Of a stretch of 64,000 bases of DNA, positions 42,859-50,881 are shown piece by piece (position 1 is the stretch's first letter; each line of letters begins with the position of its first letter). Made by a program: the position numbers and the translations under genes. The DNA lies in the NCBI GenBank assembly GCA_027574665.1, contig CM050648.1, positions 50,577,200 to 50,641,199 on the forward strand, given 5' to 3'. Under the pieces are notes generated by a model. That model did no database searches. It worked only from the letters and a program-made list of their open reading frames with translations, and had not been told where the DNA came from. This DNA comes from Rhynochetos jubatus (lineage: Eukaryota > Chordata > Aves > Eurypygiformes > Rhynochetidae).

Positions 42859-42959
42859 TGCTCTGTTGAAGCGCGTTCCGAATAAGTGCAAGGCTCTGTA
42901 ACTTGTATCTGCAAGAGGGATGCTTCATAGTAATCGCTAGGTAACAGCGCCATATAATC
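42859..42959 (-). CDS. LAMA3: LAMA3 exon 14 (globular region)
   Basis: 101 nt, 33 codons + 2 nt. It encodes [18 protein letters not shown], then [30 protein letters not shown] is a hallmark of this region in alpha-3B and alpha-5. Acceptor TTCTTAG. I place the donor at GTCAGT because only this site gives the phase needed by exon 15; GTATTT four bases on would not. Confidence 0.92.
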
Positions 42960-45744
42960 CTAAGAACAAAGAAAACAAGAAATGCAAGACCATGCAGAAA
43001 ATTACAAAAGAAACATCTCTAGACTTTCACAATATGTAGCAACAAACAAAACCAACCACTTAAATAATTTTTACAGATGATATCTGCAAGACGTGGGATT
43101 TTTCGTTGTTGTTGCATGGGCCAATAACATCAGCCTGTGTCTCCCTAACCCTGTTTATACCTTCACCGAGATGGGACGAGGGCAGCTGTCCTGTGAGCAG
43201 GGCAACCCTGCAGCCACTCTCCCATCATGTGCTGTAGAAGACGGTGTTCTTGAAGGAGCCTCCCCACGCCTTGGTAACATGCAGCTGGCTGGGGGCAATT
43301 TTCACCCGTGTGTGCAATCCACACACACACAACTCAACCGCGCATGATTCCACGAGGGAGATTCACGCATCCCAGGTGACTTTATAAAAATATTCCATGG
43401 AATCTATGAAGCTGTGCTTCAAAAGCTATATTTTTGCTCTGACTTGCCTGTTTAAATTAACACATTAGAGCTTATTTTGAAAAATGGTTATTGTGAGAAC
43501 AAGCTGGGCTAAGATCATTAATAAATTCCTTTTCAAAGATATTGGTAAAAAAACCAGACACAGTAAGTACTGTCCCTTTCAGCAAGAAATATGTTTGCAA
43601 GCTCTTTAGTAACATTTTATGTGGTATTCCATAAACCTAACAGGGCCCCAGGCTTAATGACTGAAGACACTGGCTACTTGTTAACCCTACACAACATACA
43701 TCTGAATTTCAGTACGCTGTCTTTGTGATCACACATGTTGTCGTGGTTTAACCAGCACACATGCTTAAGGTTTTTCATAAATGACCACCTTAATTTGTCT
43801 TTTTGTAGCAATTTCTCAGAACTGCTGTCAGAAATTTTTTCAGTTTTTCAGTAAGTGAGAGTAACGATGGGAGGATAAGAACATTATGAAAACGACCTGC
43901 TAATCATGCAGCCCATCTGATAATACTTTTCTGAAGAACCTTTGTCAAGAAACTAAGGCCTTGGTCATTTGTGGCTGAGCCGGGCTTCAAATAAAACATC
44001 TGATGTGCAAGAATTACAAATTTCTGTGAGCACTTATGCTCAACCGATTGTGCTGTATCTTAACATTACTTTATCATTTGAAGGTACGGATTCTGGATAG
44101 ACTTAAGGTCTGTAAGCACAAGAAAAATCAGAGCAGGTGAAAGTCAGAGAAGAAATAAAAAATTAGAGGCAGAACTGTAAATTTTCATAATGATATTCTG
44201 CTGTTGTATCCTTTTCACTAGTACTGAATTTCAATTGCTTGCAGGGTTCTTCCCAACAAATAAATCCAGAGCAATACTGTGATGACAACCTTCAAGCTCT
44301 TGCCTTCCTCAGTTACTTTCTTACCAAGAGAACTTCCTCTGCCATTATACTGACAGTCCATGTGCCTGGAACCAGAGAGAAAGGCTCCGTGGAGCTTTTT
44401 CCTGGGATTGTGATGAAAGCTGGCTCCTTGCTGGGTGGGAAGACAAACTCCTTGCTCTGAGCAGCCCCTGCCAGAAAAAAGAAAAGAAAAAAAAAAGAAT
44501 CAAGTGAAAAAATAAAGGACTTATAAAATGTCTCTACTTGCTTAGGGCACTGGACTGATGATTTCATCCATTAAACTTAGTCTAACAGGAGCTGTTCAAT
44601 GCTTTCCTGTCAATATGTATTACCAGTGCATTCGACCACACGCAGTAAGCTACAGAGCTATGCAGCGGTTGTTGCCTTTGTTTTTATGTCTTGAGCAAAC
44701 TGGTTCAGAAAAAGCAGAGCTCATCCTCTGTAATGGCTACTTTTGCAATACTCTGCAGTGCTCAATTCTTCACTTTCCCCTTCCAGTATTTCCCATTCAA
44801 CCTCTCTCTGCACAGACCCCCGACATGTTCAGCTGACACAAGGCCTCTCCTCATGCAGCTTGCAGCCAAATATCTCAGATACTAGAGGTTCTCAGTCGCA
44901 TCTAAAATGTTTAGTTACAGACAGTAACTGAAGGTAACTTTCTGGGCAGAGATAACGTACAACAGAACACAGCTGCAGTATGCTTTATCAGAGAAAAGAT
45001 GTGAGGATCAAGTGCTATGAATGTTAAAGGTTTCCTCTTTGAAGTCCCTAGACACAGATGAAAGCTGGTTCCCTGCCTCCCAGGCAATATAAGCCAGACC
45101 TGACCACAAACTGCCACCACTGCTAAGTGGTGTCTGCCCAGCCTTCAGTTTTGTCTCTGCCAAATTCCTGAATTATGATCACATTCCATCAGTATGCTGG
45201 GGTTAGGCATAATAAGAGATAATTCCAAATATAGGCTTGGTATGCTTCTACCGTTTGAAGGATACAGAGTACTTATCTTTTATCAGGGCCCAAAAGGCAT
45301 CACATGCTGTTGAGGTCTGTAGTCAGAGCTAACTTGTTGGGTTGGATTCATCATTAAATAAATATTATTCATGGAACGAAGGCAGAAGCTGCCTTTAAAC
45401 TGAAATATTAAAGGCAACTAAACCAAGATAAGTGCTGTTATGCCTTCTTTAAAAGCTTCATGAAACACACAGTTCAGAGCTTCCAAGTGCAGAACTGAAA
45501 GTAGTGAGGTTTGGCAAACATTAAAAAAAAAAACAGTCGTTGACTGCTACTGTAAGCAGGGGTTTCATGCAAACACAGCCACACCAATTACACAGCAAAA
45601 TATATTAGGAAAGGCACAAAAGCACTGACACTGTTAAAAGTGATGCATTTTAAGCGACATTACAAGTTTGACTTAGGTGCACCTTGAAAAGGCACCTCTG
45701 ATCTTACATTCACCTGATCTGTTGTGCCGTTGAGTCGCACCTAC
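42960..45744. other. Introns 12b-13 and 13-14
   Basis: Around exon 13. I looked for a further copy of the exon 12 type in these introns and saw none. Confidence 0.5.
44325..44467 (-). CDS. LAMA3: LAMA3 exon 13 (globular region)
   Basis: 143 nt, 2 nt + 47 codons. It encodes AAQSKEFVFPPSKEPAF, ITIPGKSSTEPF and WTVSIMAEEVLL. The P..EPAF..VPG and AE.VLL motifs are shared by alpha-3 and alpha-5. Acceptor TGGCAG, donor GTAAGA. Its phase-1 start accepts both exon 12a (giving W at the junction) and exon 12b (giving G). Confidence 0.95.
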
Positions 45745-45877
45745 CTGTTTCAGGCCGAGATTGACAAGCAGATATGCGGCCAGATAACGTTTCACCTCCA
45801 GGGTTAATATATCTCAGGATAATGCGAAATAAGGAGAGGTTTGATTTTTCCACATTCAAAGTTATCCTCACTTCGTT
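45745..45877 (-). CDS. LAMA3: LAMA3 exon 12b, constitutive-type partner of 12a
   Basis: 133 nt, 44 codons + 1 nt, phase 0 to 1. It encodes NEVRITLNVEKSNLSLF, RIILRYINPGG and LSGRISACQSRPET. It matches the human alpha-3 segment I remember (VRITLNV, RYVNPG), so it is the orthologous exon. Acceptor TTTTTCAG, donor GTAGGT. It joins exon 13 to read ETGAAQSKEF, close to the human GAAQSKE. Only 191 nt separate it from exon 12a. Confidence 0.93.
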
Positions 45878-46068
45878 CTGAAAAATGGAAGTTAATAAAC
45901 AAAAACAGCCGTAAAGTGCTGAATAGAGGAACAGTTAGAAGCCATGCAAGCACCGTACTAAAGTCCTACAAGAAAAATGCACATGCAGACAAGTGTATAC
46001 TGGAATGGCAATGCTGGTGTGTGACAGAGGAGGACAGGCAAGCCTAGTGAGAAAATTAATTCACTTAC

Positions 46069-46207
46069 AAGTATAATTAGTGCCAAAATGTTTTCCCTCA
46101 GCAATTGAGATCTTCCCTTTAGAGCTTTTTGAGCCCAGTCTGACATAGCGGAGGACTAGGTGGAAGAGCTTAGGGGAAGTCACAGTGACAGGCACAACCA
46201 CCTCTGG
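46069..46207 (-). CDS. LAMA3: LAMA3 exon 12a, candidate mutually exclusive alternative exon
   Basis: 139 nt, 46 codons + 1 nt, phase 0 to 1. It encodes PEVVVPVTVTSPKLFHLVLR, then YVRLGSKSSKGKISIAEG and FGTNYT. Acceptor TTTCCCAG follows a long pyrimidine tract; donor is a consensus GTAAGT. It occupies the same position and phase as exon 12b and is a distant relative of it (shared LF, LRY, G.IS pattern). If 12a and 12b were joined, the last T of 12a and the first AA of 12b would give TAA. Spliced to exon 13 it reads NYTW then AAQSKEF. It resembles my memory of laminin alpha-5 (TSPDLFWLVFRYV) more than human alpha-3. Its use in mRNA is inferred from intact sites and frame. Confidence 0.8.
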
Positions 46208-47789
46208 CTGGGAAAAATAAAAAGAAAGGGGAAAAGGAGGAAAGGAAAGTATATTATTTGTTACTAGCACCCAGAGAGAGAAAAACCATTTGGCAAAGAC
46301 CAACCCCATAACAGAAAAGGAAGGCTTCAGCAGCTCACAAAAGAATACGGAACAAAACCTCCTGTGAAATAAAACTCTTGTAGAATAACAGCTTATCTAG
46401 AAAGACACAGAGAGGCTGAACTAACCTGTGTTAGTATTGCACCTTGAGACATGGGCAGTATTTTACTATTATTTTCCCCTCCTGAGCCATAAACAAGACA
46501 TAGGTATTAAGGGCTGTCCATACTCCTGGCCTCCCAAGGACCAGGCCAGGATCATTGATCCTAGTCTGAGATCACACACAGCACTCCACAGTGTGCAGGG
46601 AGCTCAGACTGTCACTTGAACGTTCTGCTCCTCCACCACATCCCATAGTTTCCTAGGGATGTGATGCCATGCCCCGCTTTGCCCTGGGGCTTAACTGACA
46701 CCTCCGGAGCCACGCAGTTCTCCTCAGCCCTGGTCAGGCAGCAAGTCCGCAGGAAGCTGCATTCACACAGCCCCCACCTTTTCATTTGCAGAGCAACAGA
46801 CTCAGCAGAAACATGTTCAAGGGTTGGTGGTGGATTAGGAAAAACTAGGATCGGTGCAACCTCAAAAGTTTGGCCTCCTTCTTTCCATCCTAAATCCCAA
46901 AGTTCCCTTCATAATCCAACTCCAAGTTCACCCATCACAATCCCCTCACTGCCCCTTTCCAAGATGCTTGTGGTACGGGGACATCCCCACCACTGTGGTC
47001 CATTCTGCTTCCCCAAAGGCACACAGGTTTTCTCAGGTCCATACATTTGAGAACAGACCACAAAGTCTCATTTTTTTACTGCTAAAAGCTACAATAAATG
47101 CAAGATTGACGGCTCCCTCATGCTGCTTTGGATGTAGATTCTTCACCAACATCCCACAGACCTCCACTTTCTTAACAGAACTACAGAGCAGAAAGCAAAG
47201 ATAGACATACAAGAGATGGCAGGGCTGGGAGATCTACAGAGACTAGACAGCTCAAATCCAGGGGACTGCATTAAGCACAGTGGAGCTGTGATGGAAGTAC
47301 TCAGCCTCTAACCAAAATAGCAGTTTTGGTACAGGCTCCAAAGGAGGTAAAGGTCCAAGCCGTCGCTGGGCCAAGAACTCGGCTAGTTCCAATCTCTCCT
47401 CTGAAAACCCACAAAGCAGCCAAGTGACACAGTGAGCACTGACACACATGAGCTTGGAACATTGATCATGCAAGTAACACAGGAACAGTGTGTGGCTTTT
47501 CCAAGGCTCATTTATGAAGAAACAGAGAATATTGTGGGTACAAGGAGTCTTATGCATATCTTTCCCACCACATGTAATTTGACTACGAGCCAACCACTTT
47601 ATCCCATAAAAATGACAGCCTAAGTGAGCATTCTTTGAGCTCTCCCTGCTAGGCAGCATGGCTGCGTGATGGCGACCTTCCCGTGAGCTGAGACGTCTCT
47701 CAAGGTTACGTCTCGAGGCAGAGAGACCTTTTACCAACTGCAGATTTTTGGTAAGCAACCGATATCATGCATAACCTTGTAGGATGAAA

Positions 47790-47875
47790 ACTTTTGTCTT
47801 GGTAACTTTAATTTGTGCCTTGGTAAATTTTATTTGTGACTTGACAACTTGGACTTTGTCTTGGTAACTTTGAAT
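47790..47875. repeat. Imperfect repeats of a ttgtcttggtaacttt unit
   Basis: Four diverged copies, spaced about 20-24 bp, of a tttgtcttggtaacttt-like unit. They are followed by ATTAAA at 47968-47973. The block could be part of an old LTR or another retroelement, but I cannot place its ends. Confidence 0.45.
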
Positions 47876-49564
47876 CATCATTCAGATGATTGTGCTGCGC
47901 AGTAACAGCGAGCCTTGCCACTGAACTTCGTTCAAGTCACACTTTTACAAGATCATATTAAACCCACTTTTGCTAATACCATTGACAGAGGTTCTTTAAA
48001 CAATCTGAATCACCCATTTGCAACGGAACCAGAATAAAAAATACAGACAAGTAGGGGAAGGTTTTACAAGTGTTGTTTTAAATGGAGAAGGATGACTACT
48101 GAAGGATACTACATGGATAAGACGGGCACTGAGGGAATACTTCAAAAATAGGTATTAACAAAAAGTAAAAGGCAAAAGAAATACAGAAACATGCTTCAGA
48201 AGATTTATCAAAATGGTTTTCTAAACTTTAATGGAAAATCTAGAAGACACGTTGATGAGTGAGGAAGAAGACACATAAGGAATGAGAGAGGAAGAGATGT
48301 CAGTCCCTGGCTTCAAGCAAAGGCAGGGAGTGGGGAGAAATTATTCTTTGAGCTCTGTCAAACTTGGGCAACTCTGGCCAGTGCTTTAAAATCGGAGCCC
48401 AGCTGTCAGCTTCTCAATCTATAAGGAGACACCCAGGTTGGCACCATGACAGGACACAGGTCACCCCCTCCACTGAAGTCACACACAGCTTATTTACTGC
48501 ACCTCACAAATTTTTAATTGTATTGAAATAGTTTCTTTTCACAAAGAGTTGTTACATTAGCCTTTTGTGTGGTAGATACCGTAACACTGTTTCTCTCCTA
48601 CAAAACAAATGTCAGGAGGATTATTTCAGGGACCTGAGAGACACCGAAACACTATGTCAAATTTGGGAAAGTTCCTTGAAATGAAGAATGTGAGACTATC
48701 TCAGTTATGCAAGGATCTAACTAAGGAGGGCCTGGAGCTGGCAATTACTTAAATGAGTGAAAAGATTTATCCAGGTGAGCAAAATAATGCAAAACTTTAG
48801 CTAGATTAGAGACTAAGCCCTTTCATTACCTCTTTACAAAACCCACTGGCTATGAAATGCGAAAAGCACCTGGTTAGAAAGCAGAAGTTAAAAAATCACA
48901 GCTGCTGGAGAGTTGCCTTCATTTGTGAATGTGAAGTTTCAACAAATATGAGCTCTGGGTTAAAAAAAAACCAAAACAAAACAACAACAAACCCAATAGA
49001 ACAAAGAGGAAAGAGTGAAAACTGAAGAGCAGGAAGGAAATCACTATGTTTCTGCAATGGTTATGTGCTTAAGCCGCAGTCTACAGTGATCCATTAGTTC
49101 TTGGACAACTTAGCGAGGCTGGACACATCTATACCTGGAGACTAAAAAATCTAATCAGCACCAGAGTACTACAGATAGCAGAGAACTACTTTTCAGAAGA
49201 GTGAGAAAATCCCATTTATTGCTCAAACCTACTGTTGTAAAATCCTGGTTCACTTGCTCAGCAATTCAGTCCAAAGTCAGACAGGCCTCTTCTCACACAA
49301 TTAAATCATGGTGAATTTCTTCCTATGATTTACTTATTCCCTCTGCTGTTGTTTAGTCTATTTATAGACTGTCAGGAGACTAGAATAAATGTTGCCACTA
49401 TGCTCCTGCTAACAGCTTGTTTTACTGAATCACACATTTTCCTGTTTGCTGTAACATGAAGGTATCACTCTTAATAACGCTGGCACCTTTCTTTTCCTTG
49501 CCCAGTATAAGTTGCAATTGTAGGAAGGCTTCAGTGACAGCGCTGTGATGGTAGCTGAAAAGAA

Positions 49565-50280
49565 CTAGTGTGGCTGAAAGAGTGACTGGAAAGCTGCCCG
49601 GTGGAAAAGGACCTGGGGGTGTTGATCGACAGCCAGGTGAATACGAGCCAGCCGTGTGCCCAGGTGGCCAAGGAGGCCAGTGGCATCCTGGCCTGCATCA
49701 GGAACAGTGTGGCCAGCAGGACTAAGGAAGTGATCGTCCCCCTGTACTGGGCACTGGTGAGGCCACATCTTGAGTACTGTGTTCAGTTTTGGGCTCCTGA
49801 CTAGAAGAAGGACACTGAGGTGCTGGAGCATGTCCAGAGAAGGGCAACAGAGCTGGGGAAGGGTCTGGAGCACAAGTCCTGTGAGGAGCAGCTGAGGGAA
49901 TTGGGACTGTTCAGCCTGGAGAAGAGGAGGCTCAGGGGAGGCCTTATTGTTCTCTACCACTATCTGAAAGGAGGCGGCTTAGAGGTGGGGGTTTGTCTCT
50001 TCTTCCAAGTGACAAGGACGAGAGGAAATGGCCTCAAGTTGTGCCAGGGGAGGTTTAGACTGGATATTAGGAAAAATCACTTCACCGAAAGGGTTGTCAG
50101 GCATTGGAACAGGCTGCCCAGTCTGTGGTTGAGTCACCACCCCTGGAGATATTTAAAAGATGTGCAGATGCGGTACTTAGGGACATGGTTTAGTGGTGGG
50201 CTTGGCAGTGTTAGGTTAGCATCTGGAGCTGATGATCTTAAAGCTCTTTTCCATCTTAAACGATTCTATGATTCCATGGT
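49565..50280 (+). mobile_element. CR1 LINE, 5'-truncated, longest copy in window
   Basis: About 715 bp in plus orientation. It carries the C-terminal part of CR1 ORF2 (frames reading [35 protein letters not shown]) broken by a stop near 49802, then the 3' UTR with a gattctatgattcc tail. It lies in the intron between LAMA3 exons 11 and 12a, antisense to the gene. It is a dead copy. Confidence 0.9.
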
Positions 50281-50724
50281 CTTACGGACACAGACTGATG
50301 CTGAATACTGTAATTAAAATGATTTAGTCAAGCATGAAGCTTCTGCTGTTTCCACTGTCCTTGGCATGATCAGGATTTTTGCACTTATTATTATAGACTT
50401 TAAAACTATTAGTTCTTTTCTTTAAACTTATTGCAAAATGCATGTTTGTCACAAAAAAAACCAACCTACAAACCAAAAAATCCCCCAACAAAACACAAAG
50501 AACATCTCTGAAGAACACATATTTGCACTAGCAATGACCAATTTACAACAATACCCACACTCACTAATCCAAACAGTAATATAGTGCCAAAGCTCAGATT
50601 AGTGTCACCCTGTCCTTTCTTCTGGTTTCTCCATGACCTTGCACACACACAGCAGTATTACAGAGGCATACATACTGTACACCTATGTTTTCACCCACAG
50701 ACTTAGAGTAAAATTCCAGCTTAC

Positions 50725-50881
50725 TTGTATAGCGGACATCCGGGCATATCCTCTCCAACTGAAGCTAGGAAATTCCTGAGTATCGTAGCCAAAGCGAATT
50801 TCCTTTCCCTCGACAGTAGTACCATCTTCAACCTCAAACTTCATGTGGTGCAGATCAGGGAAAAAATAGGTTTTTTCAGGC
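50725..50881 (-). CDS. LAMA3: LAMA3 exon 11 (start of globular domain IVb region)
   Basis: 157 nt, 1 nt + 52 codons. It encodes YFFPDLHHMKFEVEDG, IRFGYDTQEF and SFSWRGYARMSAIQ. Human alpha-3 and alpha-5 both carry a matching SFSWRGYAQM segment. It ends in phase 0 with donor GTAAGC and can splice to either exon 12a or exon 12b. Confidence 0.95.

Follow-up and report, generated by a model that had tools for sequence, protein, structure and literature searches.

A probably ancient pair of putatively mutually exclusive, tandem-duplicated exons in two laminin alpha genes of a bird genome

The laminin chains alpha-3B and alpha-5 are components of the epithelial basement membrane. The bird DNA analyzed here, a stretch of 64,000 nucleotides that we refer to as the window, hosts on its minus strand a laminin alpha gene in which two adjacent exons, 12a and 12b, seem to encode alternative versions of one protein segment. 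Are these two exons used in an either-or manner, how old is the pair, and could one of them be a dead duplicate? A preliminary description of the window, made from the letters alone, had proposed that exactly one of the two exons is included in each transcript, and had considered this arrangement a novelty of the single gene at hand.

To place the locus, we aligned the window to a region of the same 1.33-Gb genome that hosts a second laminin alpha gene (C20:4490001-4540000). The best chain built from 204 matches is composed of 35 colinear blocks and provides the basis for pairing the two genes. The gene in the window thus shows colinearity with a laminin alpha chain, and is not itself the other such gene of the genome. 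On the basis of human sequence and of the preliminary description, we take the gene in the window to be LAMA3 (laminin alpha-3B) and the gene on C20 to be LAMA5. The exon pair presumably lies in the globular LF region (domain IV-like) of the alpha-3/alpha-5 branch of laminins. The main features discussed below are collected in Table 1.

Table 1. Positions of the exons, introns and sequence elements around the exon pair (window positions for LAMA3, contig positions for LAMA5).
Feature	Position	Strand	Details
LAMA3 exon 11, upstream partner	50725..50881	-	157 nt; phase-0 end, ...MSAIQ/gtaagc
LAMA3 exon 12a, alternative type a	46069..46207	-	139 nt; phase 0 to 1; PEVVVPVTVTSPKLFHLVLRYVRLGSKSSKGKISIAEGKHFGTNYT + T
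LAMA3 exon 12b, alternative type b	45745..45877	-	133 nt; phase 0 to 1; NEVRITLNVEKSNLSLFRIILRYINPGGETLSGRISACQSRPET + G
LAMA3 exon 13, downstream partner	44325..44467	-	143 nt; entered in phase 1
LAMA3 intron 12a-12b	45878..46068	-	191 nt
Pyrimidine run upstream of LAMA3 12a	46219..46249	-	31 nt, uninterrupted
TGCATG hexamer, first copy	45982..45987	-	in LAMA3 intron 12a-12b
TGCATG hexamer, second copy	45943..45948	-	in LAMA3 intron 12a-12b
LAMA5 12a-type exon	C20:4517573-4517711		139 nt, length equal to LAMA3 12a
LAMA5 12b-type exon	C20:4518022-4518151		130 nt, versus 133 in LAMA3
LAMA5 intron 12a-12b	C20:4517712-4518021		310 nt

The coordinates, phases and splice dinucleotides first assigned to 12a and 12b proved right, base for base, and in each exon the assigned frame is the only open one of the three forward frames. 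The two exons had also been described as related but different, and their peptides indeed align with 26.9 bits (10 identical and 22 positive residues out of 37) in a two-sequence blastp search without composition correction. This similarity is too weak to emerge from larger searches: the other LAMA3 exon was not among the matches when either exon was compared to the 64-kb window with tblastn, nor when either peptide was searched against the genome. The exons of LAMA5 presented below bridge types a and b, and one HMM, built from the four exons of the two genes and hence partly circular, catches all four with E < 1e-21. Adjacent exons 12a and 12b are thus homologous. All four exons run from phase 0 to phase 1, which fits the flanking exons, and the joined frames 11-12a-13 and 11-12b-13 are open in both genes. 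The proposed consequences of any other combination were confirmed in LAMA3, where double inclusion generates a TAA stop at the junction of the two exons (T/AA) and double skipping joins exon 11 to exon 13 out of frame and leads to a stop inside the latter. The frame would therefore impose exclusivity at the protein level. A frame logic that penalizes double inclusion is a feature shared with vertebrate mutually exclusive exons, and exons whose length is not divisible by three occur in 377 (60%) of the human clusters studied (PMC5740500, in excerpt).

The splice sites of both exons had been called strong, a description that calls for some qualification. The boundaries are cag/CCAG and ACTT/gtaagt for 12a, and cag/AACG and ACAG/gtaggt for 12b. 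We ranked all candidate sites between exons 11 and 13, counting the donor of exon 11 and leaving out the acceptor of exon 13, with approximate position weight matrices (PWMs). Among the 435 AGs the acceptor of 12a scores highest, as does the donor of 12b among the 405 GTs. The donor of 12a ranks only seventh of the 405 GTs because of its non-consensus T at position -1, and the acceptor of 12b (score 4.9) lies outside the best eight AGs. The same T is the source of the double-inclusion stop; it is retained in LAMA3 and LAMA5, and the codon that it forms with exon 13 differs between the two genes (TGG, TGT).

LAMA5 hosts the same exon pair in the same intron, with the same order and phases (C20:4515757-4520670). 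Its flanking exons are as long as those of LAMA3 (157 nt for exon 11 and 143 nt for exon 13) and share with them 32 of 52 and 25 of 47 residues, respectively. Between the two genes, the 12a exons align without gaps and are identical at 21 of 46 residues and 89 of 139 bases, and the 12b exons are identical at 21 of 43 aligned residues, compared to a residue identity of 29-33% in the four comparisons across types. Double inclusion again creates a TAA at the junction between 12a and 12b, so that it is expected to be unproductive in both genes. When both exons are skipped the frame is shifted in LAMA5 as well, yet no stop is met within exon 13. The presence of a 12a-type exon in LAMA5 has two consequences for the initial proposal: the idea of a novelty confined to LAMA3 was too narrow, and most of the objection that 12a is a dead duplicate is answered. 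Mutually exclusive use is favored by the exon anatomy and, above all, by the LAMA5 pair, and at the RNA level we infer it from these. Judged by the sequence features analyzed here, the identification of 12a and 12b as mutually exclusive tandem-duplicated exons is well supported.

We then asked how old the pair is. In a quartet analysis of the four exons, the tree that groups like types is the best (lnL -403.1, compared to -414.3 and -414.4 for the other two under LG, a gap of around 11 log units). In the AU test this tree reaches 0.969 under LG and 0.978 under WAG+G4, and the third tree 0.056 and 0.039. The remaining tree, which corresponds to independent tandem duplications in LAMA3 and LAMA5, reaches 0.047 and 0.021. 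Convergent tandem exon duplication is reported for several gene families (PMC9741552, in excerpt); in the present case both the quartet values and the agreement of the two genes in exon order, phases and the 139-nt length of 12a weigh against it, and we give this explanation hardly any credence. When the four-exon HMM was run over 3,769 open frames of at least 20 amino acids from the 64-kb window and from a 50-kb LAMA5 region, only these four exons matched, the next match having an E-value of 0.33. In the whole genome, the 12a query with E-values up to 10 returned just the two type-a exons (LAMA5 at 8.1e-5). The 12b query returned both exons of type b, that of LAMA5 at 1.0e-6, together with LAMA5 12a (E 0.86) and one weak match elsewhere (E 3.4). 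Neither the HMM scan nor the genome searches thus returned a third copy of the exon. Similarly, a search of the 35 LAMA3 blocks against themselves (E up to 0.01), from which matches more than 99% identical and aligned query stretches with at least three cysteines (EGF repeats) were omitted, detected no further duplicated exons, and the 12a alignment had no relative in prokaryotic and viral contig sets, as expected there.

The similarity between the 12a exons of the two genes is essentially confined to the exon, with a local score of 71 compared to 25 for the best of 200 shuffles. In the upstream flank the score is 20 when the pyrimidine tract is included (reached by 17 of 200 shuffles) and 14 when it is not (157 of 200), and in the downstream intron it is 23 (7 of 200). 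Given the presence of the same pair in LAMA5, the grouping of like types, the exon-only similarity and the lack of a third copy in these searches, the pair most likely predates the separation of LAMA3 and LAMA5, and 12a is, on this evidence, not a young local relic. The two genes probably separated in the early vertebrate genome duplications. We therefore favor, with a probability of roughly 0.8, an ancient tandem-duplicated and mutually exclusive pair of coding exons in the globular region of the alpha-3/alpha-5 branch, derived from one duplication before the split. In the ancestor of LAMA3 and LAMA5, one exon would have been duplicated within its intron; both genes would have inherited types a and b, and the present genome would retain all four exons. 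Tandem-duplicated mutually exclusive exons are described as mostly ancient in the excerpted text of PMC9741552.

A comparison with human may add a second layer to this history. Human LAMA3 probably uses type 12b and human LAMA5 type 12a. The segment of human LAMA5 is identical to LAMA5 12a at 30 of 46 residues, to LAMA3 12a at 18 of 46, to LAMA3 12b at 14 of 44 and to LAMA5 12b at 10 of 43; that of human LAMA3 is identical to LAMA3 12b at 26 of 41 residues, and to LAMA5 12b, LAMA5 12a and LAMA3 12a at 18, 15 and 12 of 41, respectively. Six human peptide strings had no match in a full-text literature search. If this assignment is right, human has one type per gene in a reciprocal manner, and each gene of the present genome holds its own version and that of its sister. 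A switch older than the split may then have been resolved differently, reciprocally in mammals (type b in LAMA3 and type a in LAMA5) and with the full switch kept in both genes in birds, a tentative reading to which we assign slightly less than even odds. If it is true, two genes took over from one switch in mammals, each bird chain could adopt the segment of the other chain within the same globular domain, and the locus would be a natural experiment on the interchangeability of gene duplication and alternative splicing.

The two exon types differ in their signs of constraint. Exon 12b shows clear constraint of the plain coding type between the two genes, with identities of 0.60, 0.81 and 0.35 at the three codon positions, pN of 0.28 and pS of 0.79. 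LAMA5 12b thus shows plain coding constraint relative to LAMA3 12b, although human LAMA5 probably uses only 12a. The profile of 12a is nearly flat (0.63, 0.70 and 0.59; dN 0.46, dS 0.61, dN/dS around 0.75), mainly because identity at the third position is unusually high, and protein-type constraint on 12a alone is weak. In neutral simulations at the divergence of 12a the frame stayed open in 38% of cases (28% when run the other way); 11% retained 21 or more identical residues, and around 4% combined the two features. These data leave some room for the possibility that LAMA3 12a is decaying, that is, that the pair is ancient and that LAMA3 in this lineage settled on 12b, with 12a now little used, as a mirror image of the probable state of human LAMA5. 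Such decay is consistent with the weak protein-type constraint, with a pN of 0.34 compared to 0.22-0.28 for exons 11, 12b and 13, and with simulations that are not decisive. Against it speaks an exon whose frame, length, both splice sites, top-ranking acceptor and T/AA junction are intact and whose third-position identity is so high, and we consider it unlikely.

The third-position identity of 12a is the highest of all 35 blocks (27 of 46, compared to 607 of 1,606; one-sided P-value 0.0037), in an unplanned comparison, noticed after the fact, with the 33 blocks that remain once 12a and 12b are set aside and that were not trimmed to exon ends. With a stricter synonymous measure, the use of the same codon at identical residues, the difference is not significant (12 of 21 compared to 364 of 818, P-value 0.18). 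Exons with splicing signals are said to show high third-position identity, and synonymous constraint imposed by such signals is the reading that we prefer. Its rival is gene conversion, in which LAMA5 12a would have served as template for LAMA3 12a, or vice versa, long after the split, and the pair would then not be ancestral to both genes. This would account for the dS of 0.61, compared to 1.66 for exon 13 and to saturation in exons 11 and 12b, and could agree with downstream introns slightly more similar than by chance. Besides the local score given above, the two introns between 12a and 12b have in common the 11-base word GTGCATTTTTC, at offsets of 86 nt (LAMA3) and 4 nt (LAMA5); a shared word of this length is reached by 2 of 500 shuffles, and since it was spotted after the fact we did not use it as evidence. 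Upstream, however, similarity falls to the level of shuffled sequences once the pyrimidine tract is removed, and base identity along 12a is not blocklike (14, 16, 17, 12, 12 and 11 identical bases per 20, then 7 of 19). Conversion would moreover need to strike one exon while type b too is present in both genes. We regard it as a remote prospect compared to one duplication before the split followed by constraint on splicing signals. Within 12a, base identity peaks in bases 21-60 (33 of 40) and is lowest in the last 19 (7).

The segment that would be exchanged is composed of 44-47 residues, which by eye look like three beta strands with their loops. Charge differs among the forms, and so do the N-glycosylation sequons (NYT in LAMA3 12a, NLS in LAMA3 12b, NVT and NCT in LAMA5 12a, none in LAMA5 12b) and the cysteines (two in LAMA5 12a, one in LAMA3 12b, none in LAMA3 12a and LAMA5 12b). 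LAMA5 therefore departs from LAMA3 in the two cysteines and two N-X-T sequons of its 12a, besides the length of its 12b. None of the four joined segments of the two genes (for LAMA3, window 42882-50881, spanning exon 11 through the exon that follows 13) returned a Pfam family at E-values up to 10, and a PDB sequence search with the LAMA3 12b form returned a single chain, a MarR regulator, unrelated by name (E 0.14). An either-or exon in both paralogs would mean a second form of alpha-3B and of alpha-5, and would give a handle on the role of a domain that had neither a Pfam model nor a solved sequence relative in the copies searched. It would also offer a clean case in which to ask whether paralogs come to replace splice variants in function.

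LAMA3-A and LAMA3-B are known to differ by alternative start, and FGFR2 IIIb/IIIc are an established example of vertebrate mutually exclusive tandem-duplicated exons. As in FGFR2, and in exons 4a/4b of OGDH (PMC7969005, in excerpt), the exons described here are adjacent, homologous and of equal phase, and they would be used one at a time and swap a segment of a folded domain. Unlike in those genes, the pair lies in the gene of an extracellular-matrix chain and occurs in two paralogs at once. The LAMA3 isoforms already on record are of another kind: a table row of PMC9579139 lists an N-terminal swap, and PMC2773424 describes LAMA3-A, -B and -C transcripts. The difference between LAMA3-A and LAMA3-B concerns the same gene, but it affects the N-terminal part and does not lie between homologous exons. 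Likewise, the LAMA3 splice variant in PMC2773424 is the LAMA3-A transcript rather than the 12a/12b pair, and the terms 'mutually exclusive', 'homologous exon' and 'exon 12' are absent from that article. The terms 'LAMA' and 'laminin' are absent from the main text of PMC5740500 and PMC9741552. Overall, titles, abstract openings and selected passages of open-access articles contained no description of the pair in LAMA3 or LAMA5. It is quite possible that both exons are already listed where bird genomes have been annotated automatically.

As for how the choice is made, the spliceosome would connect exon 11 with one of the two exons, and this in turn with exon 13. Messengers with both exons or with neither would presumably decay, which would leave just two proteins per gene. 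Two simple causes of exclusivity are not indicated, since intron size and AG spacing look normal. Steric blockage in a short intron is not suggested by the lengths of the two introns between the exons (Table 1), that of LAMA3 being well above the 50-nt steric limit used in PMC5740500. A distant branch point is not suggested by the nearest preceding AG, which lies 36-54 nt ahead of the 3' splice site in all four exons, and in this respect LAMA3 and LAMA5 differ from OGDH (PMC7969005).

The choice between the two exons is probably made by RNA-binding proteins. The pyrimidine run upstream of 12a is the longest among the scored exons in each gene: that of LAMA3 compares to at most 27 nt in 33 other LAMA3 exons, with exon 13 (27 nt) and exon 11 (24 nt) close to it, and that of LAMA5 measures 23 nt, compared to at most 15 nt in 33 other LAMA5 exons. 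Control exon ends come from an automatic procedure and are in part wrong. This procedure was off for the 12a acceptor of LAMA3 and LAMA5 and for the exon 13 acceptor of LAMA5; exons 11, 12a, 12b and 13 were therefore given explicit coordinates. Such a run suits a pyrimidine-tract repressor at 12a, and a protein that binds it would hold this exon back. The intron between the two LAMA3 exons contains two copies of TGCATG, which we take to be an Rbfox-type hexamer. Of all stretches of 191 nt on that strand, 0.36% contain at least two copies, in an unplanned test of one out of eight motif patterns looked for. The hexamer is also found twice in each of the two flanking LAMA3 introns, and is absent from the matching LAMA5 intron, a further difference between the genes. 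According to the position rule of Rbfox, sites between the exons would favor 12a and disfavor 12b, so that in LAMA3 an Rbfox-type protein bound to the two hexamers would promote 12a over 12b.

The same elements may be read in another way, with 12a as a poison exon that lowers the output of LAMA3B through the TAA formed beside 12b and whose own protein segment matters little. The T/AA junction in both genes, the two Rbfox-type sites adjoining 12a in LAMA3 and the high third-position identity of this exon all agree with such a role. A pure poison exon, however, would need neither a 12a that continues in frame into exon 13 in both genes nor the conservation of 21 of 46 residues, including VTSP.LF.LV.RYV and others, and we judge this role very unlikely relative to that of an alternative coding exon. 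Window positions 49600-50300, within the intron that separates exon 11 from 12a, look like a candidate bird CR1 retroelement.
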